From an uncultured Clostridia bacterium (GTDB taxonomy: Bacteria > Bacillota > Clostridia > UBA1381), in contig CANQKM010000004.1 of assembly GCA_947624485.1 (NCBI GenBank), positions 124,001 through 188,000 on the forward strand: a stretch of 64,000 nt of DNA, read 5' to 3'. Position numbers and translations under genes: made by a program. The notes under the pieces were generated by a model, which worked only from the letters and a program-made list of their open reading frames with translations, was not told where the DNA came from and ran no database searches. Shown here piece by piece: positions 11,606-30,171 of the stretch; the stretch's first letter is position 1, and every line of letters starts with the position of its first letter.

Positions 11606-12985
11606 TCACTCCTCCGCGCTTATATTCATTCTTATACGCGCGGTAAATGTTCTCTTTTCGGCGTTGTAACGGAATTTTGCGCTGCCGCCGTACTTCTGCG
11701 CCGTATGCGCTATGCTGCGCAAGCCGTAACCGCCGCTCGGACAGCCGCTCAGAAACGCCTCCGCGGGCAAAAAGCCGTCGTCCGACTGAAAATGCCGGTC
11801 AAGCGTGACGCCGCTGCAGGAATTGGATATTTCGATTGCAAGAGAGTCCTGCACCGTGCCTATTTTTATATCAATCCACCTGTCCTCCGCGCATTTTTCG
11901 CAGGCGTTTATTGCGTTTTCCATAGCGTTGCCGAACATTACCGTCAAATCCGCAGGCTCGACCGCAAGCTCGCCGCAGTCCGCCCAAGCCTCGCAGCGTA
12001 TGCCCTTGTCGCGCGCCAGACCTATGTAATACTGCAGAAGTCCGTTCACCGTCATATTTTGGCAGTACATCTCGCTGTCGCGCTTTACTGTGGTGTCGAT
12101 CATTTCGGCAAGGTAGTCCTTCATTTCGTCCAGACGTCCTCTGTCGAGCATATCGTTAAGAGAGTTGTAATGGTGGCGCATATCGTGGCGCATACGGCGC
12201 GTGCTTTCAATATCACCAGCGATTTTTTCATACTGAATCCGCTGTATCTCCATCGTCCTCCGGCGGTCGCTGTCACGCTTGCGCATCACCGATTCGCGGA
12301 AAATCAGCCAGTAAATCGCCACCTGATACACAAGCAAAACGGCAAGCATCGCGAGAAGCCGCAGGTACGTTCCGTATGTGAGGTGATAATACGTCATATC
12401 GACGCCCATTTCCGCCGCTATGAAAATGACGGTCGAGATAATCAAAATCAGGAATTCCCGCCTCATGCTCTTTGTCTCGACGCTGCTGATATATTCGCGC
12501 AGCGTGCGCAGTACAAACGTCATCATAATCGGCAGCATAACCGCGGCGGTAACTATATACATTATAACGCCGCACTGAGAGTACGCCGAATGTTCCCCGC
12601 ATTGCGCGGGCAGACCGAGAACGTCCGACAGTGCGGCGGTGAGCGCGTTCACCATGCAATACTGCAGCGCCGCGTAGAACATTATGACAAAAAACACAAG
12701 CAGCTTTTTAATCAGCGTTTCGCGCACCAGTAAAATATAAGCCGCAAGCGTGAGACATATCACGGAAAACATAAACAGGTCAGCCGTGAGCGCGGTGTCG
12801 GCGGCAACGCCGCTGTGCAGTATCACGGGAAGCAGCGCCGCGACGGCGGCAGCCGCAGCCGTTATCCATACGAAAATCCATTTACGCCGGAAACGATAAG
12901 CCCCGTTCGGGAAGGGCAGAAAAATCATCAGGGCGCACGGAAAATACTGCACGAAAAAACCGACGGCATTTTCGAGAAAAACCAT
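11606..12985 (-). CDS. GHKL-type sensor histidine kinase (AgrC/ComD-like)
   Basis: 459 residues from the ATG at 12985 (AAGGAGG 10 bases upstream; the alternative GTG at 12994 touches the RBS). The N-terminal half holds about six hydrophobic helices, as in peptide-sensing HPK10 kinases. A short coiled region leads to RRMRHDMRHH, with the probable phosphoacceptor H267. The GHKL ATPase core follows: N-box GNAMENAINAC (about 353-363) and G-box GGYGLRSI (about 418-425). Such kinases pair with LytTR regulators and commonly sense secreted peptides. The gene lies 14 bases after the LytTR regulator gene in one operon. The operon is divergent from a giant SLH protein gene that is followed by a double-glycine peptide. 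The ligand is not shown by sequence. Confidence 0.9.
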   Translation of the reverse strand: MVFLENAVGFFVQYFPCALMIFLPFPNGAYRFRRKWIFVWITAAAAAVAALLPVILHSGVAADTALTADLFMFSVICLTLAAYILLVRETLIKKLLVFFVIMFYAALQYCMVNALTAALSDVLGLPAQCGEHSAYSQCGVIMYIVTAAVMLPIMMTFVLRTLREYISSVETKSMRREFLILIISTVIFIAAEMGVDMTYYHLTYGTYLRLLAMLAVLLVYQVAIYWLIFRESVMRKRDSDRRRTMEIQRIQYEKIAGDIESTRRMRHDMRHHYNSLNDMLDRGRLDEMKDYLAEMIDTTVKRDSEMYCQNMTVNGLLQYYIGLARDKGIRCEAWADCGELAVEPADLTVMFGNAMENAINACEKCAEDRWIDIKIGTVQDSLAIEISNSCSGVTLDRHFQSDDGFLPAEAFLSGCPSGGYGLRSIAHTAQKYGGSAKFRYNAEKRTFTARIRMNISAEE

Positions 12986-12999
12986 TGTAACCACCCTCC

Positions 13000-13716
13000 T
13001 TAAAAGCCTTTCCTCCCCGCAAGCCTGTCAAACACATAATCGTCGTACGACGCGCGTATAGCGGCGCTCTGCCGTATTGTAATCGGCAGACGGATACCGT
13101 TCTGCATAACGCACGTATCCGCGCCCATACGCATGATGTAGTCCATGTTTACCATTATGCCGCGGTTTATCCGCAGAAATTTTTTATTCATCATTCTTTC
13201 AAGCTCGCCGAACGGCATACGCACCTTCAGCCGCCGACCGTCCGAGAGAGAAACGTTCACGGTATGATTGTCGCTTTCAAGGATACAGATTTGGTCCAGA
13301 AATACAATATGTCTTTCGCGTCCGACCGTAAGCGTAATGCTGTCCCTGTGACTGTGCCGCAGCTCCGTCAGACGGCTCAAAGCCTGCTGAATACCCTGCG
13401 CCGTCACCGGCTTTATCAAATAATGCATCGCGTAAAGAGAAAACGCTTCGACCGCGTGTTCCCTGCTCGTCGTAACGAACACCAAGCCCGTTTCGGGCGA
13501 AATTCCCTTAAGCGTCTTTGCAATGTCCACACCGTTCGTGCCGGGCATATATATGTCGAGAAACACGGCGTCGAACGGCGGCATTTTTTTCGCCGCTTCG
13601 AGAAAGGACGCACCGTCGGCGAACTGCTCTGCGTCAATCGTCGGAGCGCACTCCTTCAAGGTCTTTGCCAATTTCTCTCTGTCAGCCGCGTTATCGTCGC
13701 AAACGGCTATTCTCAT
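13000..13716 (-). CDS. LytTR-family response regulator
   Basis: A 238-residue response regulator. The receiver domain (1-120) has acidic pocket D7-D8 (VCDDN), phosphoacceptor D54 (FLDIYMPG), a switch T in VFVTTS and K in YLIKPV. The LytTR DNA-binding domain (about 135-235) contains ILESDNHTV and FLRINRGIMVNMDYI, typical of the AgrA/ComE/LytR family, which binds direct repeats and activates weak -35 promoters. RBS GGGGGAGGAA precedes ATG. It is first in the operon with the kinase. The 221-bp region upstream is shared with the divergent giant surface protein gene, so that gene is the obvious target candidate. Confidence 0.93.
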   Translation of the reverse strand: MRIAVCDDNAADREKLAKTLKECAPTIDAEQFADGASFLEAAKKMPPFDAVFLDIYMPGTNGVDIAKTLKGISPETGLVFVTTSREHAVEAFSLYAMHYLIKPVTAQGIQQALSRLTELRHSHRDSITLTVGRERHIVFLDQICILESDNHTVNVSLSDGRRLKVRMPFGELERMMNKKFLRINRGIMVNMDYIMRMGADTCVMQNGIRLPITIRQSAAIRASYDDYVFDRLAGRKGF

Positions 13717-13874
13717 AACTTATTCCTCCCCCGCACATTGCTGTTAAACACATGCCGCCTTTATCCTACATGCAATTCTACCACATTTTTATGCCGTTTT
13801 CAATATTTCGCTTTTCTTTTGACGTAAAAGTCATTTTATCCGTCGTGAAATACGGCTCGAACAATGCTGATTTA

Positions 13875-13889
13875 TGGTATAATTATAAT
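13875..13889 (+). promoter_or_regulatory. Extended -10 promoter of the giant SLH protein gene; no -35, possibly activator-dependent
   Basis: TGG followed by TATAAT (13878-13883) forms an extended -10, with a second TATAAT directly after it (13884-13889). At the proper distance upstream there is no recognisable -35 (GCTCGA), which suits an activated promoter. A 9-bp direct repeat GTAATACAA lies just downstream at 13893-13901 and 13906-13914 (13-bp period). The divergent LytTR regulator is a plausible activator; its binding repeat was not identified with confidence. Confidence 0.5.
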
Positions 13890-13937
13890 AGTGTAATACA
13901 ATGGCGTAATACAAAAAACTGCAATAAGGAGGATGTC

Positions 13938-16900
13938 ATGAAAACAATTTCAAAATTAAAGAGGGGTATAAGCGCCGTTTTGTCAGCAGCGCTTATCGCT
14001 CCGTTGATAGCGCTTCCCGCCGAAGCGGAAACGACGGACGTGTATATCCCCGAAATCGAAATGGAAGAGGGTATACTCGAAAACGACGTATTCTACCTCA
14101 CCGCTTCGAGCGCGCAGCTTAAGGAGGGCGCGAACGAGCGTTATCTTCTGCGTCTCGCGAGAGGCGGAGACAGCGCTTCCGCGTCTTCGGCTATGATTAA
14201 AATTGCGGACTTAAGCGCAAAGTACGGCAAAGACTACACAATATCCGTCGCAGGCAGCGACGCCGAGGTTGACAATCCCTCGGATAACGAGTCGCTTATC
14301 GAGCGTATGGAGGGCGAGGAGTACACCGAAACCGAATTAAAAACGGAGGAGGAGTACGCCGACATGCTCGAAAACGACGAGGAGCTTCAGCAGGCTACAG
14401 AGCAGGGCGTGCAGGACGCTATAGACTACCTCGAGGACGCAAGCGGAGTACTCAGTGCAGAAGAGGCGAGCGAGGGCGAAGCAGTCCCCACGGACGGAAG
14501 CGAAACGGTCAGCACCGATCCGCTTCAGCAGGCGCGCGCAACGTTTACCGGCGTTGAGGGTGAGCCGCAAAACGTTACCTCGACGACCGACACGATGCAG
14601 CAGATACAGCAAATGGCGAACGTTATGACTAACGCCGTTGTCGGCGCGACGCTCAAGGTGGACTTCGCGGCGGGCGAAAGTGAAAAGTACATAGCCATCG
14701 ATGTTAAGGACAACAACGAAGGCGACGGTTACAGATACTTCTTCCTCATGCTCGGCGCGCCGGAGGGTACGACGACGAACAGCGCTTCTTCAAGCTGCTC
14801 CCTGACAATCGTTGACGACGAGGAACAAGCGCCCGCGAAGGTCAGCTTTACCGAAAGCGCGTACGACGTTTCCGAGGACAGCGTGACGGTTGAAATCAAG
14901 CGCGACAGCGCGCTCAACACGATAAGTGCCGCGCACCTCACCACGGAAAACGGCACGGCACAGGCGGGACGCGATTTCTCACCCGTCGATATGGATGTTG
15001 TATTCCCGATGGGTATCGACACGCGCAAAATAGAAATACCCGTAAGGCGCGAATACATAGCGGGAAGCGCGGACTTTAAGCTGAAGCTTACGGCGGAGGA
15101 AATGTGCGAAATTGACGGCGGAGAAGCAAACGTCACAATCAACGGCACAATGGGCATAATTGACAACGATGATGATATATCGCTCACGGCAGTAACGGAA
15201 AGCTACAGCGTGAATGATATTGTACTCGGCGATCCGCTTACCCTTTCCAGCCCCGTAAAGACAGGCTCAAGCGATCACTCAAACTCCAGCAACTACTATG
15301 ATACTAACGGAAAATATTATAACCTAATGTGGCAGGACAATATCGGCTGGCCCGAATCGTGGATTCACTACTACACCGGCACTACAGCCGCAAGCTGGAC
15401 TTTGGATCCCGATTACAGAGGCGCGCATCTTGCGGGAGCGCAGCTGAGCTGGAAGAGAAACGGCAGCGACGCGGAAATAAGTGTGGGTTTTGTCGGTTCC
15501 TACTCCGCCGATGCCAAGTGGAGCAGTTATAACGGCTCGATGGCATATGAAACCACCGCCAATTTCGGAGGGGACAATTATGTAAAGGAAAACGTTTTCT
15601 GCGATTACTGGGATCCCAAACGAATTACGGTATGGAATGTAGGTCACTGCGAGGACTGCAACAACTTATATATAGAGAGCATAACGCCTATTTACAGACC
15701 GTTTATTATAGATCTTAACGCATCGGATGACCTCAAATTCCTTAACGAGAACGGAAATCAGGTAGAGGGAAGAAAGGACGGTTTCTCGGATGCGACATAT
15801 CTTGCTCTTTACGGCGCGGTAAACACGGACAACAATCAGGTAGTCCGTTTTGCTAAAGATGGCACCAACAGCATTACCGTTACGCAGACAGTCGGAGAAA
15901 ACACAATAACTCCTTATACATATCTTAAAGGTTTATCTATTGTAAAGGACGGAAAAACAAAGAAAATCGCGACTTACGGGGACGACGGCGACACTTCGCA
16001 TACGGTTTCGATGACACCGGAATGGATATACAATAATACGGACTACATTAGTTTTGAAACAAACAACAACGGCGAAGGAATGAAAAACCAAACCGGTACG
16101 TTCGGTATGCGCGGAAGAATACAATTAAAGCCCGAGTTCGGTTACCGCAACGCCAAGGTTAGGATAAACGTACCCACAGGCAACCTCGGTTATCTTGTTT
16201 TAAGCGGCAGCGAAAAGCAAATCAACAAGACCACGGACTATACATATCACCGCGGTGACGTTATAAAAATCTCAGCCAAAATGTATAAAGGCAACGAGAA
16301 TTTTTACAAGGCAGTCGGTGTTAAAATAAAATATAAGATGAACGAGAGCGACACCAAGTGGCACGAGGACAAAACAGTATACTTTGACTCTAACGGCTAC
16401 TTGTATCTCGACAGCAGTCAATATCACAGACTTCAGTACGGCTACTACGAGATAGAGCCTGTATTCCAAACAAGAGATGGAGTATTGGCGCTCGATATCG
16501 CGGAATCGGATCTGTCAAAATTTGACACGAGCTACGGCTATCTCGCAAAAGCTACGCGCAGAGAGATAGAAAAGGATAAAGTAAAGTATTACGAGTACGC
16601 TTTGGAAACAGAGCCGTTAAACGGAAAAATCTACGCGATAGCCGTTCGCATGGCGGCGAATGCCGGCGCAAACGTATATCCCGTATGGAAGGATAACAAA
16701 AGCGGCGACAAGATATATTGCGGCGAGGTATTTTTCCATGAGGCAGGTCCGGAGCAGAACGACAACATCATAACACTGTCTTACGAAACGGACACTACAA
16801 AGGACGCGTATCAGACGATAAAGGGCAGCGTGGTCACGCCAAGGTACAATATGCGTACAGGGCTTGTGGATATGCAAGTGGGCAGCGCGATGCCCGCAAG

Positions 16901-19900
16901 TGAAGCGGTCGTAAACTTCGGCGGACAATTCGCCGTTGTAGGCGAGGACGGTACCTTTACGGTTCCGCCGTTTAGGGCGCTGGGCAACACATCGTCGCCG
17001 AACAAGAAGCGTTATGTCAGATACGTAATATCGCAAAATGAACAGGACCTTCTTCAAGAGGTCGAACTCACAAACATGATGTATGAAGATAAGGAAATCA
17101 TGCTTGTAAGCGAAGACGGCACTAAGTCCACAAAAACAGTTCCCGTATATACGCAAAATGTGGGAGAACGGCAGATAAACACGGCAAACGGCGGCATTAT
17201 AGATCATATAAACGTCACGGTCGCCGACGCCGACAATGATGACGAGCAGCTTAGTCAAGGCAATATCGTCGTAATGAGTGGCGACAACGCTCTTGTAACG
17301 GCAAGTATGGCGGATAATTATACGTATACAAAGTATACGCATGATAAGAAGACGGGTACTACCACGACCACGCCAAATACTGTCGAAAATATCACAGGAA
17401 TTGAATTTGTGGTGTACAATCCCACAACATATAAGGAAACCGCCACGTATAAGGCGACGGAGCAAAAGGACGGCTCTTTCCAGGCAAAGATACCTCTCAA
17501 AGAGGTACTGCCCGGCGAAACGCTTCTTATGAGAGTAACGACCGACCGTTCGCACGGAATAACGGGTATAACGGCGGAGCATCTGTCGGATTATTACGAC
17601 AAAGACAAGTTCACAAACGCTGACAGGGAGGTCGTCGACAAACGCGAGGAGGAGCTTAATACGACGGTATATCCCACAGTTTACACGGGATTCAGCTTCA
17701 TCGACAACATGGAGAAGGTACTGCCTGTAATTCAGCACCTTGAATCGCCGGTAAACATGGATTTTGAAGCGCTTCCGTTCCTCGGTAACACATCGATGCG
17801 CTTTGACCTCCCGTTTGTATCGGTAGGCTCGATGAAAACGCCGACAGGTTACAGAATGTACGTGGGATTCAGTCCGCTGCAAATCGTCGACGCGGCAAAA
17901 TCTCTGCACGCGACAAAGTTCGCAAGCGGTACGGGCGCGTACTTCCAGGATATGTTCCAAATAGGGCATCCAATACAGAGCTTCAAGGACGGTTTGGCAG
18001 CGTCGTATAAGGAAGCGTTTAAGAACGTGCCGGAGGATAATTTGACGGGCGGCTCGGCGCTCGGCGGACCGACGTGGAAAATGGATGTTCAGATAGGATT
18101 CTATCTTGACTTTACATACGCGAGAATCGTAGATCCGAATACAGAGAGAAGCAACACGTCCGCCGTGCTGACCGGCGCGGGCGCTTATGTGGGTGTGAGC
18201 GCGGGATTCAAAATGACGTGGTACACGATCCTTCCCGTGGTGTTCATACCCGCGTACTTCGGTATCGAGATAAACGGTAACGTGCTCGGATTTATGGGCG
18301 GACAAAGTGATATGAATAAGGGTACAGTGACTTACGATACGGCGAAAAACGCTACGGTCAAGTTTGAAAATTACCTCAAGGAGTTCCACGGCTCCGTTCA
18401 GATGGCTGTGTCTGTCGCGATATACGTCGGTATAGGTCTTGCAGGCACGATAGGTATACGCGGAGGCGGTACGTTTACCGCGATGGGTATGTGGTACCCG
18501 ACGGATCTCGTTTCCGACTTCGGCGCGGATCTTACGTTTACGGCGGGAATTTGGATAGATCTGTTCCTGTTCTCGGTACCGCTGCAATACACGTTCCCGG
18601 ATATAAAGTTCGGTTCGTTTAAGGAATACGAAGAAATGCCTCCGATAAATCCGGAGGTGTCGGGCGATGGCGACAAGGATGGCGGCAATGACAAGGGTGA
18701 CGGCAATGACAAGGGCGACACAAACGCCGCTTCTCTCACAAGCGCGGAGGATAAGCCGTCGCTTACGGTGAGGGAGCCGTATTCGAAGAAGGAGAGCGAG
18801 TGGCTGCCGGACGGTGATATATCACTTATGTCGGCGTTCGGTGAAAAGAGTACGCAGACACTCGTTGAGGGTGCGTATGAGCACCCCGACACGCAGCTTT
18901 TGAAGCTCGATGACGGAAGCGTATTTATGGCGTTCATTGACAATGACACGTCGAAAGGTGATACGGAAAGAACTGTGCTTAAGTACTCCGTATATAAGGA
19001 CGGTACGTGGAGCACCCCGAAAGAAGTTCAGGACGACAGTACCGCCGATTATCAGCCGAGCGTATGTCTTGCGGGTGAGGGTAAGGTTATGATTTCGTGG
19101 CTGTCACGCGATCCTAAAAAAGCTACAACTGCCGAGCCCGCCGATTATCTTAAGGGTATGGAAGTGTACACGACGGATATTGACGTTGCAAGCGACACGG
19201 TTGGCGCGATAACGCGTCTTACTACCGACGACTATTACGATTACACCCCGACGAGCGTCTATGACGAGGTTACGGGTGATAAGATGGTTTACTACGTAAA
19301 AACGTCCTCGTCGGGTACGGCGGAGGAGATGATAAACTCCTACATGAACGACTGCGTTGTGGTATATATGCTGTACTCGGCTAAAGAGGACAAGTGGATG
19401 GTCGACGAGTATTACCCCGAAGAACTGTCCGACAGTAACGGAAACGGAAGTACGGATGACGAGAAGCAAGAGCTTGTAGATAACTGGCAAGGTCAGAGGT
19501 TCCTGTCGTCGCCGCTTCCTGAGCTTGATATGGACGTTCCTAACATATCCGACTTTACCGCAACGTCGTACAACGGTATAGCCGTGTACGCGTACACGAT
19601 TGACAAGGATTCGTCAAACGATACAACGTTTGATAAGGAACTGTTTATGCAGTGCTATGACTTTGAGCAGCATAAGACGTATAAGCCGGTAAGAATTACG
19701 GACGACAACGTAAGTGACGCTCTGCCGCAGTTCGTAAGGACAGAGGGTAAGGAAGAGGATATACCTGCCGGTCACGAGTCGGAATTTAAAAAGGCGGATA
19801 TGGCGTCGACAAAGCTGTTCTGGTACAGAGATGAAAAAGAGGTCGACTATATTGATATATCGTCACTCGTAAAAGAAGGTGTCAACGATGATGGCACAAT

Positions 19901-22073
19901 CAAGGAAGATTACTTAAAGAGCGCGGACGGCGGCGAGGTAAAGGGACTTGACTCGCTTTACTCGCACGTTTCCGTTCCGGCTGAAAATCCGAGCGCGTCA
20001 AGGTACATGGCTGACTTTAAGCCGGTTGTCGACGGCGACGATATTTACGTCGTTTGGACGCAGCCCGCGTCAACGAATGAAACTGACGAGGACGGTAATA
20101 TCATTCAGTGCCGCGAGGTATACGCGACAGCGCTTGTCCAGGACGAAAACGCCGCAGCTCCCTCAGAGGGTGAAGCGGTGGAAGGCGCAGGCTGCTCATG
20201 GGCGCCGCCGTACAGGCTGACGAATACGAACGCATTCACCGACGAGCCGAACGCGGTAGTTGACAGTAACGGTAACCTCATGGTACTTTATAACAGCTTT
20301 AATCAGGAGCTTACGGACGATGCGGAAAATCCTGTTGAGATAACCGACTTCAATCTCATGGCTTCGTACATGGAGCCTTGCGGCGCGGTTGACGTTACGG
20401 ATATACAGGCGCTTAACGAAACTCCCCTGCCCGATGAAACGATTGAGGTGAGAGTAAACGTTAAAAATAACGGTCTTACCTACGCCGACGGCTATGACTT
20501 AAAGGTATATGCGGCAAAGAACGGTCAGAAGCAAGGTGAACCTGTATTTATAAATACAGAGGGAAGCGACAGCCAGCTGCTTCCGGGAAATACCGATACG
20601 TATATGTTCGAGTGGACAGTTCCCGAGAGCGGCGTGGACGGTATGAGCTTTATTGCCGAGGCACAGGAACACGGTATGGAAAACGTCTCAAACTACGAGA
20701 GCGAGAAGTTTGAGGAAAAGCCGGTATACACCGTTGATAACGTAGATTCGTATCAAGACGCCGGCGGCTACCACGTTAAGTACAATATCACGAATACAGG
20801 TAACGCTCCGTCAAATTCGGGCGATAAGATGAACGTAATATTCAGCGGACCTTACGATATGGCGATAGGTTTAACGCCTGAGGAATGTGACTGGGGCAGT
20901 GCCGAGATAGGCGCGTTAGACGTGGACGAAACAGCGCCTTACAAGGTGGATTTGGACGTTATACCCGAGAAGTTTGACGAGATAGGCTTTGTTGACTGCC
21001 TGCTCATAGGCAAGGACAAGGAAGGTCACTACAACACGGCAGGTGAAAATATACGTCTTTTGGCGGTAATGCCGACAACTCTGCTTCTTAACGGCGAACC
21101 GTTCCCCGAAAAGATAGAGCTTGCCGAGGGTGAGACGATGGACTTCAGCATAACGTGCGAGCCGAGTTCGCTCAGCGAAGGAATGAGCGCCCTCCTCGGC
21201 ACTGACGACACTTCAATAGCGACATTCGACGGCACGACGCTTAAGGCGCTCAGCGAAGGTACAACAGTGATACACGGCAACGTAACGCCCTACGGCAATG
21301 CGATACCCGATATAACGGTAACGGTAACTCCGAGTAAAGCCGAGCCTGAACCGACATCAAGACCGCGCGGTTCGGGTTCGGGCGCGGCGTCACGGCGCGA
21401 TACGGCAACCCCCGCTCCGACAGCGTCGCCCGAGCCTACGGCTGCACCCGACGCAACACCTGCACCTACGACCGAACCTGACGCAACGCCTGCGCCCGAC
21501 AGCGGAAATACCGCGGAAACACAGTTTAAGGATGTGACTCCGTCAGACTGGTTCAGCGGCAGCGTAAAATACGCAGCCGAAAAGGGCTACTTTGCAGGTG
21601 TAAGCGAGGACACGTTTGAACCCGACACCAACGTCACAAGAGGTATGCTCATAACGGTAATAGGACGCATGAACGGCGTCAAGCCCGAAAATACGGATAT
21701 GACGTACACCGACGTAAACAAGGATATGTACTACGCTCCGTATATCGCGTGGGGTACTGAGAATGGAATAGTCTCCGGTTACAGCGATACGGAGTTCGCG
21801 CCCGATGAATTGGTAACACGCGAGCAGGTCGCGGCTATGCTGTGGAGATATGCGCAGTATATCGGAAAGGACGTGTCGGTCGGTGAAAACACGAACATAC
21901 TAAGCTACGCCGACGCGGCAGAAGCGAACGATTACGCGGTACCCGCAATACAGTGGGCATGCGGTTCGGGCATTATGAGCGGCTACACGGACAACACACT
22001 AAGACCGCAGAACAACGCGACACGAGCCGAAGCTGCCGCGCTGACGGAGCGGTTTGACAAGATAATCAAATAA
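13938..22073 (+). CDS. Giant multidomain SLH-anchored surface protein
   Basis: 2711 residues from the ATG at 13938, 4 bases after an AAGGAGG RBS; the open frame runs upstream to 13752 but lacks start signals. Signal peptide 1-33. Two Calx-beta-like domains (about 40-75 and 301-412, with ENGTAQAGRDF). A long middle region (about 430-1580) is not recognised, apart from a Gly-rich amphipathic stretch near 1400-1560. After an Asp/Gly/Asn repeat (GNDKGD), residues about 1640-2150 resemble a sialidase-like beta-propeller (DDGSVFMAFID, AGEGKVMISW). CARDB-like modules follow (about 2150-2350), a Big_2-like domain (about 2380-2460), a Pro/Thr-rich linker (2467-2527) and three C-terminal SLH repeats. 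No catalytic residues could be assigned; role likely adhesive. It is probably controlled by the divergent kinase/LytTR pair. Confidence 0.9.
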   Translation: MKTISKLKRGISAVLSAALIAPLIALPAEAETTDVYIPEIEMEEGILENDVFYLTASSAQLKEGANERYLLRLARGGDSASASSAMIKIADLSAKYGKDYTISVAGSDAEVDNPSDNESLIERMEGEEYTETELKTEEEYADMLENDEELQQATEQGVQDAIDYLEDASGVLSAEEASEGEAVPTDGSETVSTDPLQQARATFTGVEGEPQNVTSTTDTMQQIQQMANVMTNAVVGATLKVDFAAGESEKYIAIDVKDNNEGDGYRYFFLMLGAPEGTTTNSASSSCSLTIVDDEEQAPAKVSFTESAYDVSEDSVTVEIKRDSALNTISAAHLTTENGTAQAGRDFSPVDMDVVFPMGIDTRKIEIPVRREYIAGSADFKLKLTAEEMCEIDGGEANVTINGTMGIIDNDDDISLTAVTESYSVNDIVLGDPLTLSSPVKTGSSDHSNSSNYYDTNGKYYNLMWQDNIGWPESWIHYYTGTTAASWTLDPDYRGAHLAGAQLSWKRNGSDAEISVGFVGSYSADAKWSSYNGSMAYETTANFGGDNYVKENVFCDYWDPKRITVWNVGHCEDCNNLYIESITPIYRPFIIDLNASDDLKFLNENGNQVEGRKDGFSDATYLALYGAVNTDNNQVVRFAKDGTNSITVTQTVGENTITPYTYLKGLSIVKDGKTKKIATYGDDGDTSHTVSMTPEWIYNNTDYISFETNNNGEGMKNQTGTFGMRGRIQLKPEFGYRNAKVRINVPTGNLGYLVLSGSEKQINKTTDYTYHRGDVIKISAKMYKGNENFYKAVGVKIKYKMNESDTKWHEDKTVYFDSNGYLYLDSSQYHRLQYGYYEIEPVFQTRDGVLALDIAESDLSKFDTSYGYLAKATRREIEKDKVKYYEYALETEPLNGKIYAIAVRMAANAGANVYPVWKDNKSGDKIYCGEVFFHEAGPEQNDNIITLSYETDTTKDAYQTIKGSVVTPRYNMRTGLVDMQVGSAMPASEAVVNFGGQFAVVGEDGTFTVPPFRALGNTSSPNKKRYVRYVISQNEQDLLQEVELTNMMYEDKEIMLVSEDGTKSTKTVPVYTQNVGERQINTANGGIIDHINVTVADADNDDEQLSQGNIVVMSGDNALVTASMADNYTYTKYTHDKKTGTTTTTPNTVENITGIEFVVYNPTTYKETATYKATEQKDGSFQAKIPLKEVLPGETLLMRVTTDRSHGITGITAEHLSDYYDKDKFTNADREVVDKREEELNTTVYPTVYTGFSFIDNMEKVLPVIQHLESPVNMDFEALPFLGNTSMRFDLPFVSVGSMKTPTGYRMYVGFSPLQIVDAAKSLHATKFASGTGAYFQDMFQIGHPIQSFKDGLAASYKEAFKNVPEDNLTGGSALGGPTWKMDVQIGFYLDFTYARIVDPNTERSNTSAVLTGAGAYVGVSAGFKMTWYTILPVVFIPAYFGIEINGNVLGFMGGQSDMNKGTVTYDTAKNATVKFENYLKEFHGSVQMAVSVAIYVGIGLAGTIGIRGGGTFTAMGMWYPTDLVSDFGADLTFTAGIWIDLFLFSVPLQYTFPDIKFGSFKEYEEMPPINPEVSGDGDKDGGNDKGDGNDKGDTNAASLTSAEDKPSLTVREPYSKKESEWLPDGDISLMSAFGEKSTQTLVEGAYEHPDTQLLKLDDGSVFMAFIDNDTSKGDTERTVLKYSVYKDGTWSTPKEVQDDSTADYQPSVCLAGEGKVMISWLSRDPKKATTAEPADYLKGMEVYTTDIDVASDTVGAITRLTTDDYYDYTPTSVYDEVTGDKMVYYVKTSSSGTAEEMINSYMNDCVVVYMLYSAKEDKWMVDEYYPEELSDSNGNGSTDDEKQELVDNWQGQRFLSSPLPELDMDVPNISDFTATSYNGIAVYAYTIDKDSSNDTTFDKELFMQCYDFEQHKTYKPVRITDDNVSDALPQFVRTEGKEEDIPAGHESEFKKADMASTKLFWYRDEKEVDYIDISSLVKEGVNDDGTIKEDYLKSADGGEVKGLDSLYSHVSVPAENPSASRYMADFKPVVDGDDIYVVWTQPASTNETDEDGNIIQCREVYATALVQDENAAAPSEGEAVEGAGCSWAPPYRLTNTNAFTDEPNAVVDSNGNLMVLYNSFNQELTDDAENPVEITDFNLMASYMEPCGAVDVTDIQALNETPLPDETIEVRVNVKNNGLTYADGYDLKVYAAKNGQKQGEPVFINTEGSDSQLLPGNTDTYMFEWTVPESGVDGMSFIAEAQEHGMENVSNYESEKFEEKPVYTVDNVDSYQDAGGYHVKYNITNTGNAPSNSGDKMNVIFSGPYDMAIGLTPEECDWGSAEIGALDVDETAPYKVDLDVIPEKFDEIGFVDCLLIGKDKEGHYNTAGENIRLLAVMPTTLLLNGEPFPEKIELAEGETMDFSITCEPSSLSEGMSALLGTDDTSIATFDGTTLKALSEGTTVIHGNVTPYGNAIPDITVTVTPSKAEPEPTSRPRGSGSGAASRRDTATPAPTASPEPTAAPDATPAPTTEPDATPAPDSGNTAETQFKDVTPSDWFSGSVKYAAEKGYFAGVSEDTFEPDTNVTRGMLITVIGRMNGVKPENTDMTYTDVNKDMYYAPYIAWGTENGIVSGYSDTEFAPDELVTREQVAAMLWRYAQYIGKDVSVGENTNILSYADAAEANDYAVPAIQWACGSGIMSGYTDNTLRPQNNATRAEAAALTERFDKIIK

Positions 22074-22092
22074 ATTTAAGGAGGATATAAAA

Positions 22093-22233
22093 ATGGCTGA
22101 AAATGAGAAAGAGAAGAACACTCAGGAATTGGACTTGGATGAGTTGGAGCAAGTAACGGGCGGCGGCGCGTTTGACAATGTACCGCGCGTACCGGAACAC
22201 AAAATTGACGACTCCCTGAGAAGCAAGATATGA
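22093..22233 (+). CDS. Short double-glycine-leader peptide (candidate secreted signal or RiPP precursor)
   Basis: A 46-residue ORF with an excellent RBS (AAGGAGG, 8 bases before ATG), beginning 19 bases after the giant protein gene and therefore almost certainly co-transcribed. Residues 1-24 are an acidic leader with the classic ELxxxxxxGG pattern (LDLDELEQVTGG). Such leaders are cut after GG and exported by peptidase-C39 ABC transporters. The predicted core is about 22 residues, GAFDNVPRVPEHKIDDSLR plus SKI: hydrophilic and charged, with no Cys, so lanthionine and thioether chemistry are unlikely. That is more like a pheromone than a pore-forming bacteriocin. A peptide-sensing-type kinase/regulator pair lies just upstream of the giant gene. 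No C39 transporter or modifying enzyme is in the window. Confidence 0.8.
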   Translation: MAENEKEKNTQELDLDELEQVTGGGAFDNVPRVPEHKIDDSLRSKI

Positions 22234-22265
22234 TTTGCCGCAAAACGGGCTAATAAATCGTCACC

Positions 22266-22294
22266 TTGATTTTTTCCCCCTTCTGATGTATAAT
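22266..22294 (+). promoter_or_regulatory. Promoter of the stalk-domain protein gene, embedded in a terminator
   Basis: TTGATT (22266-22271), a 17-bp spacer and TATAAT (22289-22294) place the start of transcription near 22301. The -10 lies in the loop of the hairpin at 22274-22310. Confidence 0.75.
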
Positions 22295-22317
22295 ATATCG
22301 GAAGGGGGAATTTTTTT
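22274..22317 (+). terminator. Terminator hairpin overlapping the promoter and RBS of the next gene
   Basis: A perfect 10-bp inverted repeat, TTCCCCCTTC (22274-22283) and GAAGGGGGAA (22301-22310), with a 17-base loop is followed directly by TTTTTTT (22311-22317) and then the ATG at 22318. It has the form of a terminator for the giant-protein/peptide operon. Its right arm is also the RBS (GAAGGGGG) of the next gene. Confidence 0.75.
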
Positions 22318-23076
22318 ATGAAGAGATTTACTTTGGGTTTCGTAATAGGCGGCGTTATATGCTCCGCGCTGACGGGGTTCGCGGTTGAATATGCCATTAC
22401 GGCGAACCCGTTTCCGATCAGGGTTGACGGCGCTGAAAGGTCAATCGAGGGCTACAATATCAACGACAGCACCTACTTCAAGCTCCGCGACATTGCCGAC
22501 GCGGTAGGCGGTTTTACGGTAGGCTTTACAAATAATACGATCACAATCAGCACGCAAGCCGAGCCGTCGGAAACGGCAAGCACCGACGAGCCTATCACGA
22601 TCCACGAGGGCGAGGTATCTCAAAGGAGATTTGCGAGAGAGGGCGACACGGTAATAAAAGCGGACGGCACTGCGGTAGTGCTAAAAAAAGGGCCGCACGG
22701 CGTGCTTGGCGAAGGACAGGGCGTTGCGCCGGATCTCGGCGTCACGGTAACAGGTGTTGGTAATACCACGGTTACAATGACAAATGTAACAGGTTTAGTA
22801 TTTTCAGGCGATGTCGGAGACGAAGTTGACTCAACGGGTATGACAGTTAATAATCAGTCATATTATGTTAATTTAGTAACGGGTGAAGGTCATTGGGGCA
22901 GAGATTGGATGGTTATAACTTCTGTGCCTACAACCCCCGGAGAATTTGCAGACCAATTATCGGAAGATAAGAATTGGGTTTGGTCCGGAACTTTACAATC
23001 TTGGATGCAAGTATCAGCACAAGCCATGTATCCGGAAGCGTTGGACAGAGTATTGGCAGCCAATGGCTTGAAATAA
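22318..23076 (+). CDS. Exported protein with N-terminal copper-amine-oxidase-like stalk domain
   Basis: A 252-residue protein with a signal peptide or membrane anchor (residues 1-27, GFVIGGVICSALTGFAV). A short copper-amine-oxidase-like stalk domain follows (about 35-82: PIRVDGAERSIEGY, STYFKLRDIADAVGG, NTITIST), a module that Clostridia place on many wall-exposed proteins. The remaining 170 residues are unrecognised. From about 22741 the gene becomes visibly more AT-rich with different codon choice, which suggests a mosaic or recently acquired C-terminal part. RBS GAAGGGGG is shared with a hairpin. It follows the double-glycine peptide gene but has its own promoter and is ended by a bidirectional terminator. 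Confidence 0.8.
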   Translation: MKRFTLGFVIGGVICSALTGFAVEYAITANPFPIRVDGAERSIEGYNINDSTYFKLRDIADAVGGFTVGFTNNTITISTQAEPSETASTDEPITIHEGEVSQRRFAREGDTVIKADGTAVVLKKGPHGVLGEGQGVAPDLGVTVTGVGNTTVTMTNVTGLVFSGDVGDEVDSTGMTVNNQSYYVNLVTGEGHWGRDWMVITSVPTTPGEFADQLSEDKNWVWSGTLQSWMQVSAQAMYPEALDRVLAANGLK

Positions 23077-23131: not shown

Positions 23132-26100
23132 TTACAGCATTTTACTTGCCGCCGTGAGAGGCGACATATCGCTAAGTCCGTTCCATATCATCATTTTAAT
23201 CGAGCCGACCGAAACGTTTTCGGGTATGCTTATCGTCTTTTGGAATACGAAGCTCGTATCCGACAAATCGGCTTCCATTACATTCAGCGCCGCAAGCGCG
23301 CCGCTCCTGTCGTACACCGCAAGGAGTATATTCGCTATCATAGGCTTTTCGCCGTCCGTACCCTCAACCTCGTCAATCGTCAGGCTCGCGTCAACCTCGC
23401 CGCTCATGCTGTCCCTGTCAACCTCGTTTCCGCCCTTATCGGTAAACACAGCGTCGGCTGACACTTTTATGCCGGGAGTTGAGAGAGTGACCTTGCCGTT
23501 TGCGGTCGTCACGCCGCTGTACGCGTTTCCGACGGAGATTTCCGCGCCGCTCACCGCTAACGCGTACTCACCGTCTGCCGCACCGTCAAGCGCCTTAAAT
23601 CCCACGCGGCACACCTCGCCGCTCTCTACCGTGTCACTGTCGTTATAAAGCACCGTAACGCTGTTTTCGCCGAGTGAGGTGAATATGTTCCCTGCCGCTC
23701 CGTCAGGCGACGAAACCGACGCGTAAGCGAGCTTTGTGCTGTCAAACGTCAGCGTGAAACGGTAATCGGTTATATCGCCGTCAGCCGTTATATACACCGG
23801 CACATAAACCGTATCGCCCGCCTTACCGACCGCAGAGCCGACCGAGAGATTAGCCGTGTTCGGCTCGCGCTCCTTAACGGTGTAGCTCACCTCGCAGACA
23901 TCGCTCGCCGCGTAACCGTTCTTAACGGCTATCGCCTTAATCGTCATTTCTTCCGTTACCGCTATCGCGCCGTCATAACGCGCGCTCTCCGTTGTCGGAG
24001 CAGTTCCGTCGGTCGTGTAGAATATTTCCGCGCCGCCCGACGCGCTCCGGAGCGTTACGAGCGTACCCGATTCAACCTCACCCGCCGCAATGCCCGGCGC
24101 GGGAGCGTCGGTTTTCGGCACCGATACCTTACCGCTTGCCGCTCGGCTTTGTTCCATACCGTCCTTAACGGCTATTGCCTTAATCACGGTCGTTTCCGTT
24201 ACCTTGATCGGCTCGGTGTAAAGCGTTGACGTGCTTGTCGGCGCGGAGCCGTCCGTTGTGTAATAAACCTTTGCGTCCGCCGCCGCACACGTAAGCGTCA
24301 CCGTCTTACCGCCGTAAAAGCCGCTCGTTTCGATCATCGGCGTCGGCACTGTGCCTGACGGAGCCGTTACCTCCTCAACCGTCACCGTAAATTCAGCCGT
24401 AAAACCGCCGTATGAAACGGTAACGGTCTGCGTTCCGACCGTCTGCGCCGAATATCCATGTGCGGTGTATTCCGTGATTTGCGCTTCCGTGCCGTTATTG
24501 TACGACGCGATCACGACCATGCCCGTCGTGTCAAGGCTGTCGCCCTTATTGTAAAGGCGTTTGTCGGGTTTCCTTGTAATCGTAATGCCTGTAAGCTCTT
24601 TTGCCGCGACCGTAATATTAAACGCCGCCGTCTTGCCGCCGTATTCGACCGTTACCGTCTGCGTTCCCACCACGGAGGTGTCGCAGCTCAGCTTACAGTC
24701 GTGCGTAACGTCAGCCGTTGAGTTGTCCGAGTACACGGCTTCGACCTCAAGTCCCGTTACGTCGAGCGTCATACCCTCCGTGACCGTTGTGTCCGCGGGG
24801 TTGTTTTTCACGCGTATTTCCGTTACGGCAAGCTTGGGTATGATTTCGGTTACCGTGCCGTATTCGGACGTGTACTCCTGCGAGCCTTCCCTGTCGGGAG
24901 TAGGCTTCACGTATGTACCCTTTGTCCATACCGAAGCATCCGTCAAATTCGGCAGCGCATACGTGTCGGGTTCATCGTTATCCGCGCTCATACAAACACG
25001 TTCCGCCGTGCCGCCCGTTGTCTGCGTCGGTTCTTCGGTGATTTTCCACGCGCCCCAGTTGTGCGTTATTTCAAAATCATCGGTCACGGTCACTTCTTTA
25101 TAATTGTTCGTCGCCGCAAATACCGCCTTGACTGTGTACTCGCCCGCAAGCAGCGGTTTTTCCGCGCCGTACTCGTCCGCGCCTTTTGCCGCGTACGTGT
25201 AAGTCACGTTTTCCGTACCGTTCGTATCCGACGCGGGAACGGGGTTTACACTTTCGTCGCCGCACTTGTAATCCGCCATTGTGACCGCTGCAGCGCCGTC
25301 CGCTTTTGTGATTTCAATCCCGGCTGTCAAATTGACTTCGTTTTTCTCGGTTTCAACGCTGTAATACTTTGCGTCCGCGCCGTCAGCTTTAATGTCTGTC
25401 AAATCCACCCTGCTGTAGCTGCCGACGTCCGCAGACGATACCGTACCCTTTGCGGTAAGCGTTACGTTGTCCTCGCCGTTGTTTGTCGGCGTAAGCGTCA
25501 CGTCAACCGTTGTATTTTTATCATACACCTTACTGTCAGCCGACACTTCGTAATTAAGCGGCTTTTGTTCCATTGTAACGGTAATTTCATCCTTCTCACT
25601 GTTATTAAGGTTTATACTTCCGCCATACTCTGCGCGGATTGTGTTTGCGCCGATTTCAAAACGCTTGTTTGCGGTGATTTCAAACGTCGCTGTGCCGTCG
25701 TCGTCAAACAAACTGCTATATGTGACATTAGCCGTACCGAGAGATGTTCCGTTGAGGAAAAACTCGACTTTATCTAACTCTACCGTCGCCAAACGTATAC
25801 CGTTCGTATTATCTCTTGTAACAGTCGCAGTAAGTGTAATCGTATCGCCGTAGGTTACCTCACCGCCGTCAACCGCCAGTGTGGAATCTGCCTTATTGAT
25901 CGTAACGTCGACCTTTTGAGGTTCGCTGTCGTTGTGGTTACCGTCGCCGATTATTTTGTACCAAACGGTGTATGTGTTTGCAGTTGTACCTGTGGGAATA
26001 TCGGGCGAATAGTTTTCATTGTCAGTGCTGTACTGAAGCGTACCGTCCGATGTTTCACCGGTTACAAGCTCCTGCGCCCCGCCAGTATACTTCAAATCCT

Positions 26101-29100
26101 TCGGCGTTACCGTCGCCGACGGCGCGGCTTTTTTAAGCGTTACTTCCACAGACTGCGGTTCGCTGTCGTTGTGGTTTCCGTCGCCGGCTACCTTATACCA
26201 AACCGTGTACGTATCCGCTTCCGTACCCTTTGGAATATCCGGCGAATAGGTATCATTGTCAAGGCTGTACTGCATTGTACCGTCCGCTGTTTCACCTGCC
26301 GTGACAAGCCCCTGCGCCGTACCGTCATACGTCAAATCCTTTGCCGCAGGCGCACTCGTCACATTCGACGGCGCTTTTGTAATTTCAATCTCGGCTGTCA
26401 AGTCCGCTCCGCTTTTCTCGGTTTCAACACTGTAATATTTTGCGTCGTTGCCGTCAAGGGCTATTTCAGTCAAATCCACCTTGCTGTAACTGCCTACGTC
26501 CGCGGACGATACCGCTCCCTTTGCCGTAAGCGTCACGTCGTCCTCGCCGTTGTTTGTCGGCGTAAGCGTCACGTCAACCGTTGTATTTTCATCATACACC
26601 TTACTGTCAGCCGACACTTCGTAATTAAGCGGCTTTTGTTCCATTGTAACGGTAATTTCATTCTTCTCGCTGTTATTAAGGTTTATACTTCCGCCGTACT
26701 CTGCGCGGATCGTATTTTCACCTATTTCAAAACGCTTGTCTGCCTTAATTTCAATCTTCGCCGTGCCTCTGTCGTCAAGCGGACTGTCGTATGTAACCGT
26801 TCCCGAGCCGACAGACGTTTCATCTATGTAAAACTCGACTTTATCCAACTCCAGCGCCGCCAAACGTATACCGTTCGCCGCGCTGCGCGTAACATCGGCG
26901 GTAAGCGTAATCGTATCGCCGTATGTCACCTCGCCGCCGTCAACCGTTAATGTTGAATCGGCTTTTTTAATCGTAACGTCCACCTTCTGCGGCGTGCTGT
27001 CGTTGTGGTTTCCGTCGCCGACTACCTTATACCAAACCTCGTAGTCCTTCGCATCCGTACCTGTCGGAATATTTTCCGAATATCCGCCCGTTTCCGTTGT
27101 GCTGTACTGCAGCGTACCGTCGTCTGTTTCACCCGCCGTGACAAGCTTCTGCGCCGTGCCGTCATACGTCAAATCCGATTTTGCCTCCGGCGCTGTTGTC
27201 AAGGACGAATCCGCTCTTTTAATCTCAACGCCCTCAACCTTAGCCGGATCTATATTATTATGGTTACTGTCGCCCTCGACCTTGTACCAAACCTCGTACT
27301 CCTGAGCATTTATGCCTGTCGGAACAGTTTCGCTGTATTCGCCGTCCTCTGACGCGGCATACTTAAGCGTACCGCCCTCCGCCGTGCCGCTTACAAGGTT
27401 CTGTGCCGTGCCGTTATATGTCAAATTCTCCGCTGTCACCGCCGCGCTCGAATCGGCTTTCGCTATGCTCACCTTAACCGTAAGCGTCACATCTTCCGTA
27501 CCGTAGCTGTCCACACTCATAAGCGAATACTGCGGCGTTTTTTCTGTTGCCGTAACAGTAATCGTATAATCATCAGCGTTAAGCCCCGTGGGAACCGACA
27601 GCGTATTTCCTTCTATATTCGCGTTTGTATTATTGTCGTCACTTTCTATACTGTACTCAAATTTATTCTCGGACGCAACATCTTCATTCGCGTACTCCAT
27701 ATAGTCGTCCAAATTCGCCGTAAGCGCAGACGCGTAGCCGTAAATTCCGCTTAGCACAATTTCATTGCTGTCGCCTCCGAAGTGATCGCGTCCGACGGCG
27801 TACACCGTCATATCCTCTGTAACGCTCGTACTCTCGTCAAACTCGTCACCGTCCGCCGTCTTCGTTTTTGACCACTTTTCAAACGTATAATTATCCCTTT
27901 CAGGCTTACTCGGCAGCGTCACCTTTCCGTTCGGATTTGTGTACTTTGCGTCATACTCCGCTTCATTTTGAATGAACGCTACTTTCAGCACCTTCGCACC
28001 CGCGTCACTCGTAAGCACGGGGTACTCATCCGCCGCCACGCCGAGCTTCTGTCCCCACACCTGCGTATCGGGCGAAGTCTGACCTTTCTGCAAAAGCCAC
28101 GTTACCGCACCGGAATTAAATTCGTTCTCTGTTTTTGACTCTGTTTTTTCCACCGTGCCGCCGCTTCCTGAAGTTCCAATGCCTTCTAAGCCATCTTTTT
28201 CAAGATAATAACAATTTTTTACTGTAGCTGCACCGCCGTTTTGCCCTGCAATGGCACCGGAAAAACTAAAGCTGGAAAAATGATCAGTAATTACGCTTGT
28301 GTTATAGCAGTTTTCTATTGTGCCGTTGTTAAGGCCTGCGATACCGCCTATATAGAGAGATCCATCAATGCTGCCCGCATTATAGCAGTTTTCTATTTTA
28401 CCTTTGTTAGTTCCGGCAATACCTCCGCAATAACTACTATCTGAACCTGTTACAGCGGCGCCGTTATAACAACATATTATCGTTCCTTCATTTTGTCCGG
28501 CGATACCGCCGCTGTTATCACCTGCGGTAACAGAACCCTCAACGCCGAGATTTTTAACCGTTCCCGACGTTTCTATGCATCCGAATAAACCTTGATATTT
28601 GTCTTCATTATCTATGTAAAGCCCGCTTATTTTATGCCCGTCACCGTCGAATGTGCCTTGGAATTTATTACTTTCCGTTCCGATCGGCGTCCATTGACTT
28701 GTATCGCCGCCGTCAAGAGCTATATCCGCCGTCAGCTTAAAATACTCGTCTTTGCCGCCGTCCTCGTCAGTGTTAATATATTCGCGTATCTTTTCAAGCG
28801 TCGCCTTGTCGGGAATCGTGTACGGCGTAGCCTCCTTACCGTCGCCGCCCTCCGGTAAAGCGGTAAGTATAGGTCTTTCGAGGAAAGAGGAATCCTCCCA
28901 TGCCTCCGTTCCGCTGTTAAGTGACGATGCAAGCGTTTTAAATTCATCGGCAGTCTTTACATCGACCGTACCCGTAACGTCGTCTGTGCTGCCGATACCT
29001 TTCTGCGCTGTATCTGTTAGGTAATAGCAGTTTTGTATCTCGGCGTTGGTATTTTTACCCGCAATGCCGCCGGCATCATTAACGTCCGTAGCCGTGATAC

Positions 29101-30082: not shown

Positions 30083-30171
30083 CTTACATTCCTCCGTCAC
30101 TCTTTAATATCCATAAACAGTCCTCTGCATAAGTCTTTCCGACAGTATGCGGCTGCATAATATTCAATGTA

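Follow-up and report, generated by a model that had tools for sequence, protein, structure and literature searches.

A giant surface protein gene of uncultured Clostridia and the double-glycine peptide gene behind it: a conserved, co-varying pair

In a stretch of 64,000 nucleotides from an uncultured Clostridia bacterium (the window, on contig C4 of genome G000; GenBank contig CANQKM010000004.1), the gene of a giant surface protein is followed by a small open reading frame (ORF) for a peptide with a double-glycine (GG) leader. The giant and the peptide form a conserved, co-varying pair, and a matching exporter occurs in the family. From these comparisons, the two may constitute one unit in which the mature peptide, once exported and cleaved, would act, outside the cell, on the giant or together with it; we hold this reading tentatively, at a little short of an even call. 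Below, G-handles stand for genomes and L-handles for loci; the family set contains 70 genomes and the class set 391.

The giant gene and its peptide gene

The small ORF (22093-22233, plus strand, 46 amino acids, MAENEKEKNTQELDLDELEQVTGG followed by GAFDNVPRVPEHKIDDSLRSKI) lies 19 bp downstream of the giant gene, with a ribosome-binding site (RBS), GGAGG, at 22080-22084 (plus strand) and similar sites in the relatives. By sequence and alignment, the leader has 24 residues and ends in LDLDELEQVTGG (22093-22164, plus strand); cleavage behind it would leave a predicted mature core of 22 residues, GAFDNVPRVPEHKIDDSLRSKI (22165-22230, plus strand). The giant itself (13938-22073, plus strand, 2711 amino acids) has a Sec-type signal, Calx-beta, a long body, CARDB and three C-terminal SLH stretches. 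The open frame is longer (13752-22073, 2773 amino acids), and the start at 13938 has the RBS AAGGAGG and, by eye, a Sec-type signal peptide. Both genes are as a first-pass annotation of the window had described them, including the RBS, the GG leader and the SLH domains.

With the single window peptide as query (E ≤ 0.01), matches are found in 14 of the 70 family genomes, with 19 copies in all. Eighteen of these begin directly 3′ of a giant gene, in some cases one truncated by a contig end; copy 19 (G024:C27) lacks both an in-frame ATG start and an adjoining giant. A paralogue within G000 is 69% identical over residues 4-46, and the core is conserved across genera and families. Over 21 core codons, the ratio of nonsynonymous to synonymous rates (dN/dS) of the window peptide is 0.12 with the G000 paralogue, 0.16 with G024 and 0.08 with the first G022 copy, and between G032 and G050 there are nine synonymous changes and no amino-acid change. 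Among 78 pairs, 38 are saturated; the 40 unsaturated ones range from 0.00 to 0.74 and lie at or below 0.40 in 39 cases, the top value of 0.74 coming from two G027 paralogues with four changes in total. Judged by these ratios, the core is under purifying selection. The first-pass annotation had made its view of the small ORF depend on conservation beside giants and on such selection, and both are borne out. There is no Cys in any of 24 aligned cores.

Giants in relatives and their mosaic bodies

Assignment of the giant to a solved fold was considered and rejected. For residues 31-1130 (profile A4), most matches are Calx-beta chains (Na/Ca exchangers, integrin beta-4); for residues 1120-2290 (profile A3), one chain, 2kut, matches at E 1e-4 within the CARDB region, and two more match at E 0.57. 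A GG peptide stands behind the G426 giant (L088:8645-15922), which has no SLH match and ends in SPKTGD, a hydrophobic stretch and a basic tail, an end that we take to be a sortase-like signal; one also stands behind the G089 giant, in which no SLH is visible by eye.

Twelve further stretches were fetched. In seven, a non-cassette giant is present and its 3′ flank can be read; L105-L107 hold giants of the cassette, L108 belongs to G017, and L111 runs off the contig. Behind none of the seven is there a GG peptide. Six distant giants, one of them in G000, match the body profile in part (E 2e-44 to 6e-29) and have no GG peptide behind them.

Compared with the G024 giant, the window giant is 95% identical over residues 1-55, 55% over 56-2400 and 90% over 2501-2711, and the regulators encoded beside the two are 95-99% identical. 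With the G027 giant, the same three segments give 76%, 92% and 80%. The window peptide is 91% identical to that of G024 and 80% to that of G027. From these segment identities, it therefore appears that the body of the giant is swapped between species, and that its signal and SLH ends, like the peptide, belong to the resident lineage.

The exporter and the order of the cassette

The first-pass annotation expected a C39-peptidase ABC exporter elsewhere in the genome, and G000 does contain one: its sole C39 match (contig C2) lies about 4 kb from the paralogous giant and peptide pair. At this second locus, next to a giant of 2658 amino acids and its GG peptide, the opposite strand encodes an ABC protein without peptidase (ABC2), the C39-peptidase ABC protein (C39-ABC, ABC1), an HlyD-like adaptor and a Peripla_BP_6 lipoprotein (SBP). 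The peptidase domain scores 117.6 bits with PF03412 and has, by eye, Q12, C18, H91 and D107 (catalytic positions as in PMC12184118). For all three export proteins the closest NCBIfam models are NHLM, each below its curated cut-off (752.9 vs. 853.3, 583.8 vs. 709.4 and 132.1 vs. 156.2 bits).

Searching with ABC2 alone collects 23 named loci, from metagenome-assembled genomes titled uncultured Clostridia, Oscillospiraceae, Ruminococcus or Clostridiales, two being Candidatus Ornithomonoglobus; no fewer than 14 of these loci are contigs belonging to G-handle genomes and are therefore not independent of them. The isolate names, as we read them, point to rabbit, rumen and chicken gut. A full-length giant is present in 13 of the loci, and in all 13 a GG peptide lies 3′ of it (12 by pattern, L057 by reading). 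The order SBP-HlyD-C39-ABC-ABC2-giant-peptide holds in 12 of these; L041 is convergent, with its giant split into two ORFs. The contig stops inside the giant in six loci (L046, L048, L052, L058, L059, L061) and ahead of any visible giant in three (L045, L054, L062). In L042 (G024:C1 by its coordinates), DNA at the giant position is present and the giant absent; a phage-tail-fibre-like ORF (L042:12235-13797; Mtd_N, Peptidase_G2) occupies the usual giant position there, and a similar ORF begins at the end of L045. The giant and peptide of G024 are on another contig than the exporter and adjoin the regulator pair, as in the window. In both G024 and G008, HlyD and the giant with its peptide are on separate contigs, and the giant has different neighbours.

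In an unsystematic reading of neighbouring genes of at least 100 amino acids, no further recurring cassette gene, such as one for peptide modification or immunity, was noticed. In L049 (959-4591) and L050 (2148-5774), the exporter operon and a divergent LytTR gene flank the gene of a 1210-residue protein that has no Pfam family above cut-off, with a weak beta-helix in L050.

Core type and giant body

The cores are of three types: PRVP, TT (for example SIKNVQYTKTVEISDDTRSKI) and NNI. In the giant-body tree, for which there is a long-branch warning, a single branch separates the five TT rows and L058 from the other rows; the SBP, HlyD, ABC1 and ABC2 trees show TT and PRVP intermixed. L058 is labelled TT from its giant, its peptide being off the contig, and L055 is absent from the ABC trees, its ABC genes being uncalled.

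Mantel correlations were computed for 13 cassettes, leaving out L041 (split giant), L055 and L058 and adding L086. Core and giant body correlate with r 0.75 (p 4e-4), and the partial r given ABC1 is 0.74; core and exporter parts correlate with r 0.33-0.41 (ABC1 0.41, SBP 0.35). For the leader, the values are 0.41 with ABC1 (p 0.02), 0.37 with SBP and 0.27 with the giant (p 0.09). Since the leader lies between giant and core, a leader that follows ABC1 and SBP while the core follows the giant argues against mere linkage.

One sister pair of cassettes shows a natural swap. L049 and L050 are alike in SBP (88%), HlyD (92%), ABC1 (78%), ABC2 (81%), LytTR (88%) and the 1210-residue secreted protein (87%), whereas their giants align in parts only (28-38%), and the core is PRVP in L049 and TT in L050. 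The giant and the core type changed together here, and the exporter and LytTR stayed. Mimicry of the giant by the peptide was tried and rejected: the motifs VPRVP, PRVP[EQ], TKTT[ED]IS and I[DS][DE].[LT][RK].K[IV] are absent from the 24 giants and giant pieces searched.

Occurrence of exporter and peptide across genomes

HlyD is found in 18 of the 70 family genomes. The peptide profile (E ≤ 1e-10) matches in 17 of these 18 and in none of the other 52 (Fisher 2e-15, with kinship uncorrected, the cut-off picked post hoc and the profile made partly from the same peptides); with the single window peptide at E ≤ 0.01, the counts are 14 of 18 and none of 52. At E ≤ 0.05, three more genomes match the profile, G017, G003 and G056, the weak matches of the last two (E 0.012 and 0.026) being left out of the count. 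A genome negative for HlyD is not necessarily negative for the exporter, as G067 and G017 show: in G067, ABC2 and the start of a giant lie on a 6.2 kb contig (L061/L107). In G017, a peptide-like ORF with GA replacing GG (L108:10739-10888, E 6e-5) precedes a giant of 3276 amino acids, near an ABC2-like fragment.

Among the 391 class genomes, HlyD (E ≤ 1e-20) occurs in 13, the peptide (E ≤ 0.001) in nine and both in seven. The peptide genomes without an HlyD match, G180 and G426, have a C39-ABC homologue, partial in G180. In the five exporter-only genomes fetched (all but G386), the C39-ABC is 39-42% identical and the lipoprotein 22-29%. In G403, the contig stops inside the exporter. The tight pairing of giant, peptide and exporter holds for the family of the window and its near kin, and the exporter type is more widespread.

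Regulator genes and other features of the window

Divergent from the giant gene, the window carries a GHKL-type sensor histidine kinase (11606-12994, minus strand, 462 amino acids; PF14501, 57.4 bits, above the Pfam cut-off) and a LytTR response regulator (13000-13716, minus strand, 238 amino acids; PF00072 and PF04397 above cut-off), the latter one of five LytTR matches in G000. An extended -10, TGGTATAAT, lies upstream of the giant gene (13875-13883, plus strand) and is kept in the G024 orthologue; a promoter scan finds no full -35/-10 site before the giant on the plus strand. The divergent pair and the extended -10 without a -35 agree with the first-pass annotation. The LytTR direct repeats that it proposed to look for did not turn up: in 13717-13940, there are no 9-bp repeats of LytTR-like kind (at most one mismatch, spacing 18-24), against a mean of 0.25 in mononucleotide shuffles.

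Orthologues of the kinase (E ≤ 1e-40, 56-100% identical) occur in 10 of the 70 family genomes and in only seven of the 17 peptide-positive ones. A LytTR gene adjoins in eight of the 10 neighbourhoods. The giant and peptide adjoin the kinase in two (G000 and G024) and lie 8 kb off in G022; none is seen in the stretches fetched for the other seven. G026 and G004 have the kinase and regulator pair without HlyD or peptide matches. In G007, the LytTR and GHKL orthologues (L066:9996-13629) follow a CstA carbon-starvation gene, a neighbour that suggests a metabolic role for the pair. Similar ORFs, judged by their N-terminus, are found close to the kinase in G027 and G008. In three of the 13 full-length cassettes (L047, L049, L050), the upstream DNA contains a different LytTR gene, with about 30% identity to that of the window; the length of DNA examined ahead of the lipoprotein gene varies between cassettes, from 0.3 to 5.8 kb.

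The first-pass annotation saw in the window a candidate peptide-signalling locus with autoinduction through the neighbouring kinase. The part that concerns the peptide stands, in that it is conserved, selected, linked to the giant and accompanied by a C39 exporter. The part that has the kinase sense the peptide, and with it autoinduction by this route, finds no support in the distribution and the neighbourhoods of the kinase, which is mostly in other contexts. A regulatory link between the GHKL/LytTR pair and the giant with its peptide is possible, sensing of the peptide by the window kinase is not indicated, and the signalling reading is weak.

Behind the peptide gene, a terminator-like hairpin with a T tail (22274-22310, plus strand; one found against 0.6 expected in shuffles) fits a single predicted transcript of giant and peptide. 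Two promoter-like sites fall at 22205-22294. The stem of the hairpin (22274-22317) contains a purine-rich stretch, a possible RBS of the next gene at 22318. This ORF (22318-23076, 252 amino acids) has a hydrophobic N-terminus and no Pfam family above cut-off; relatives (56-70%) are found behind the giant and peptide of G024 (L024) and, in two copies, near the giant-less exporter of G024 (L042). In G023, the orthologous site (L064:3916-10438) has no LytTR ORF, giant, peptide or counterpart of the gene at 23132-30100, an empty or deleted block.

Proposed mechanism and alternatives

In the mechanism that we propose, the giant would leave the cell by Sec and be kept on the wall by its SLH domains. 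The C39-ABC/ABC2/HlyD exporter would cut the leader after GG and release a peptide of 21-22 residues; for the window copy, the exporter would be provided in trans from contig C2. The mature peptide would then bind the giant or otherwise act on it extracellularly, for example to complete a fold or close a site. Because the core co-diverges with the giant, the peptide seems better described as a small companion of the giant than as a cell-density signal. The fuller form of this idea, a surface machine built by two routes, in which the recombining body of a Sec-secreted giant is matched to a C39-exported peptide and the complex forms only outside the cell, is a possibility that we entertain with more doubt.

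Several findings weigh against a fixed partnership of giant and peptide. The G034:C97 giant (L109:2676-11501, 2941 amino acids) matches the profile over its whole length (E 2e-213), is 28% identical to the window giant over 2020 residues and has no GG peptide behind it; G034 also has HlyD, and a peptide behind a different giant. G007 (79% complete) has HlyD and no peptide match. Within the class, six of the 13 HlyD genomes have the exporter without the peptide (G139, G213, G282, G371, G386, G403), and in the first four, where the full stretch was read, no giant adjoins the exporter. In G243, the best exporter match adjoins three Nif11 ORFs, and its two giants with GG peptides are both away from that match. 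As to co-variation, the core still correlates with ABC1 once the giant is given (0.39, p 0.03), the leader contrast is one of two r values side by side from only 13 related cassettes, and, as the giant and peptide genes adjoin, a single recombination event can move both. Some of the regulator data also speak for a regulatory link: in the three nearest genera (23 genomes), GHKL and HlyD occur together in eight genomes, GHKL only in two, HlyD only in one and neither in 12 (Fisher p 7e-4, kinship uncorrected), and other two-component genes adjoin L047, L049, L050 and L058.

GG-leader peptides are usually classed as pheromones or bacteriocins. As a pheromone, the mature core would be sensed by the neighbouring GHKL kinase, with LytTR driving the giant operon; alternatively, a different sensor would detect it, for instance the lipoprotein encoded with the exporter. 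The co-occurrence and the two-component neighbours just mentioned speak for this, as do the giant promoter without a -35 and a weak resemblance of the leader peptide to ComC and BlpC, below the family cut-offs (17.5 vs. 20.4 and 16.1 vs. 70 bits). We nevertheless consider it unlikely, since the kinase orthologue is missing from most peptide-positive genomes, is present without HlyD or peptide in two others and mostly stands in other gene contexts. In addition, LytTR is 88% identical between L049 and L050 despite their differing core types (the kinase of L049 is off the contig), the core follows SBP far less than the giant (r 0.35 vs. 0.75), and the giant promoter has no direct repeats of the kind scanned. 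It is somewhat less likely still, in our estimate, that the peptide is a bacteriocin or modified antimicrobial peptide leaving by an NHLM-type exporter, with the giant a chance neighbour or a protection of the producer: the proximity of the exporter to NHLM models, the GG leader and the Nif11 ORFs beside the related G243 exporter would fit, but the core is conserved across genera and families instead of hypervariable, the aligned cores are uniformly Cys-free, the (unsystematic) reading of neighbours noticed no other recurring gene above the size limit, and 18 of 19 peptide copies lie behind a giant. The window peptide has no Pfam or NCBIfam match to an NHLP or Nif11 leader, the cassette neighbours having been scanned in part.

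A third possibility is that the peptide serves secretion, as an export-coupled chaperone or as a gauge reporting giant synthesis to the exporter or the Sec line. It draws on the same data as the preferred explanation, namely that the peptide gene stands regularly behind the giant and that an exporter and a lipoprotein are present. Variation of the core with the giant body fits it equally, and nothing specific stands against it. We rate it as quite unlikely.

A GG peptide tied to a giant across several clostridial families, and following its sequence type, points to a structural or activating role. A giant body and a core of about 21 residues make a testable pair and offer a handle on the function of giant surface proteins of gut bacteria. 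The exchange of surface-protein bodies between species, with both ends and the peptide remaining with the resident lineage, would be a further aspect of the system. In the open-access literature searched, we found no description of an exported companion role for GG-leader peptides or of this cassette, and none of the cassette in the literature on Monoglobus and SLH.

Relation to known systems

The ComC/ComD/ComE and BlpC/BlpH/BlpR pheromone systems combine a GG leader, a C39 exporter, a GHKL kinase and a LytTR regulator. The window locus resembles them in its GG leader, in the C39 exporter present in the genome and in the GHKL kinase and LytTR regulator nearby. It differs in that the peptide gene stands behind the giant and not with the kinase, that the core type follows the giant and that the kinase orthologue occurs in only seven of 17 peptide genomes (another kinase could be the cognate one).

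The NHLM/Nif11 export systems (TIGR03796, TIGR03797, TIGR03794; Haft 2010, PMC2887384) likewise cluster a C39-peptidase ABC protein, a peptidase-less ABC protein and an HlyD-like adaptor, and their substrates have a GG-type leader. Here, all three scores are below the curated cut-offs, the leader has 24 residues instead of being a long NHase or Nif11 leader, the core is conserved and not hypervariable, and the cluster includes a Peripla_BP_6 lipoprotein and a giant surface protein.

For the VARTIG modules of Thermococcales, PMC8416519 describes a large secreted protein with further genes downstream and with variation that arises by recombination between species; the term ABC transporter is absent from its main text. 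Those modules are archaeal and vary in a C-terminal Ig domain, whereas the present giants vary in the body and keep both ends.

The MAM protein of Faecalibacterium is, according to PMC12184118, a clostridial GG-leader product with a proposed placement on the envelope by a C39 exporter and a proposed structural role, as suggested here for the peptide. MAM is itself an abundant envelope protein with a cargo of about 113 residues; in the present cassette, the predicted cargo is only 21-22 residues long, and the surface protein is another gene product, of Sec type.

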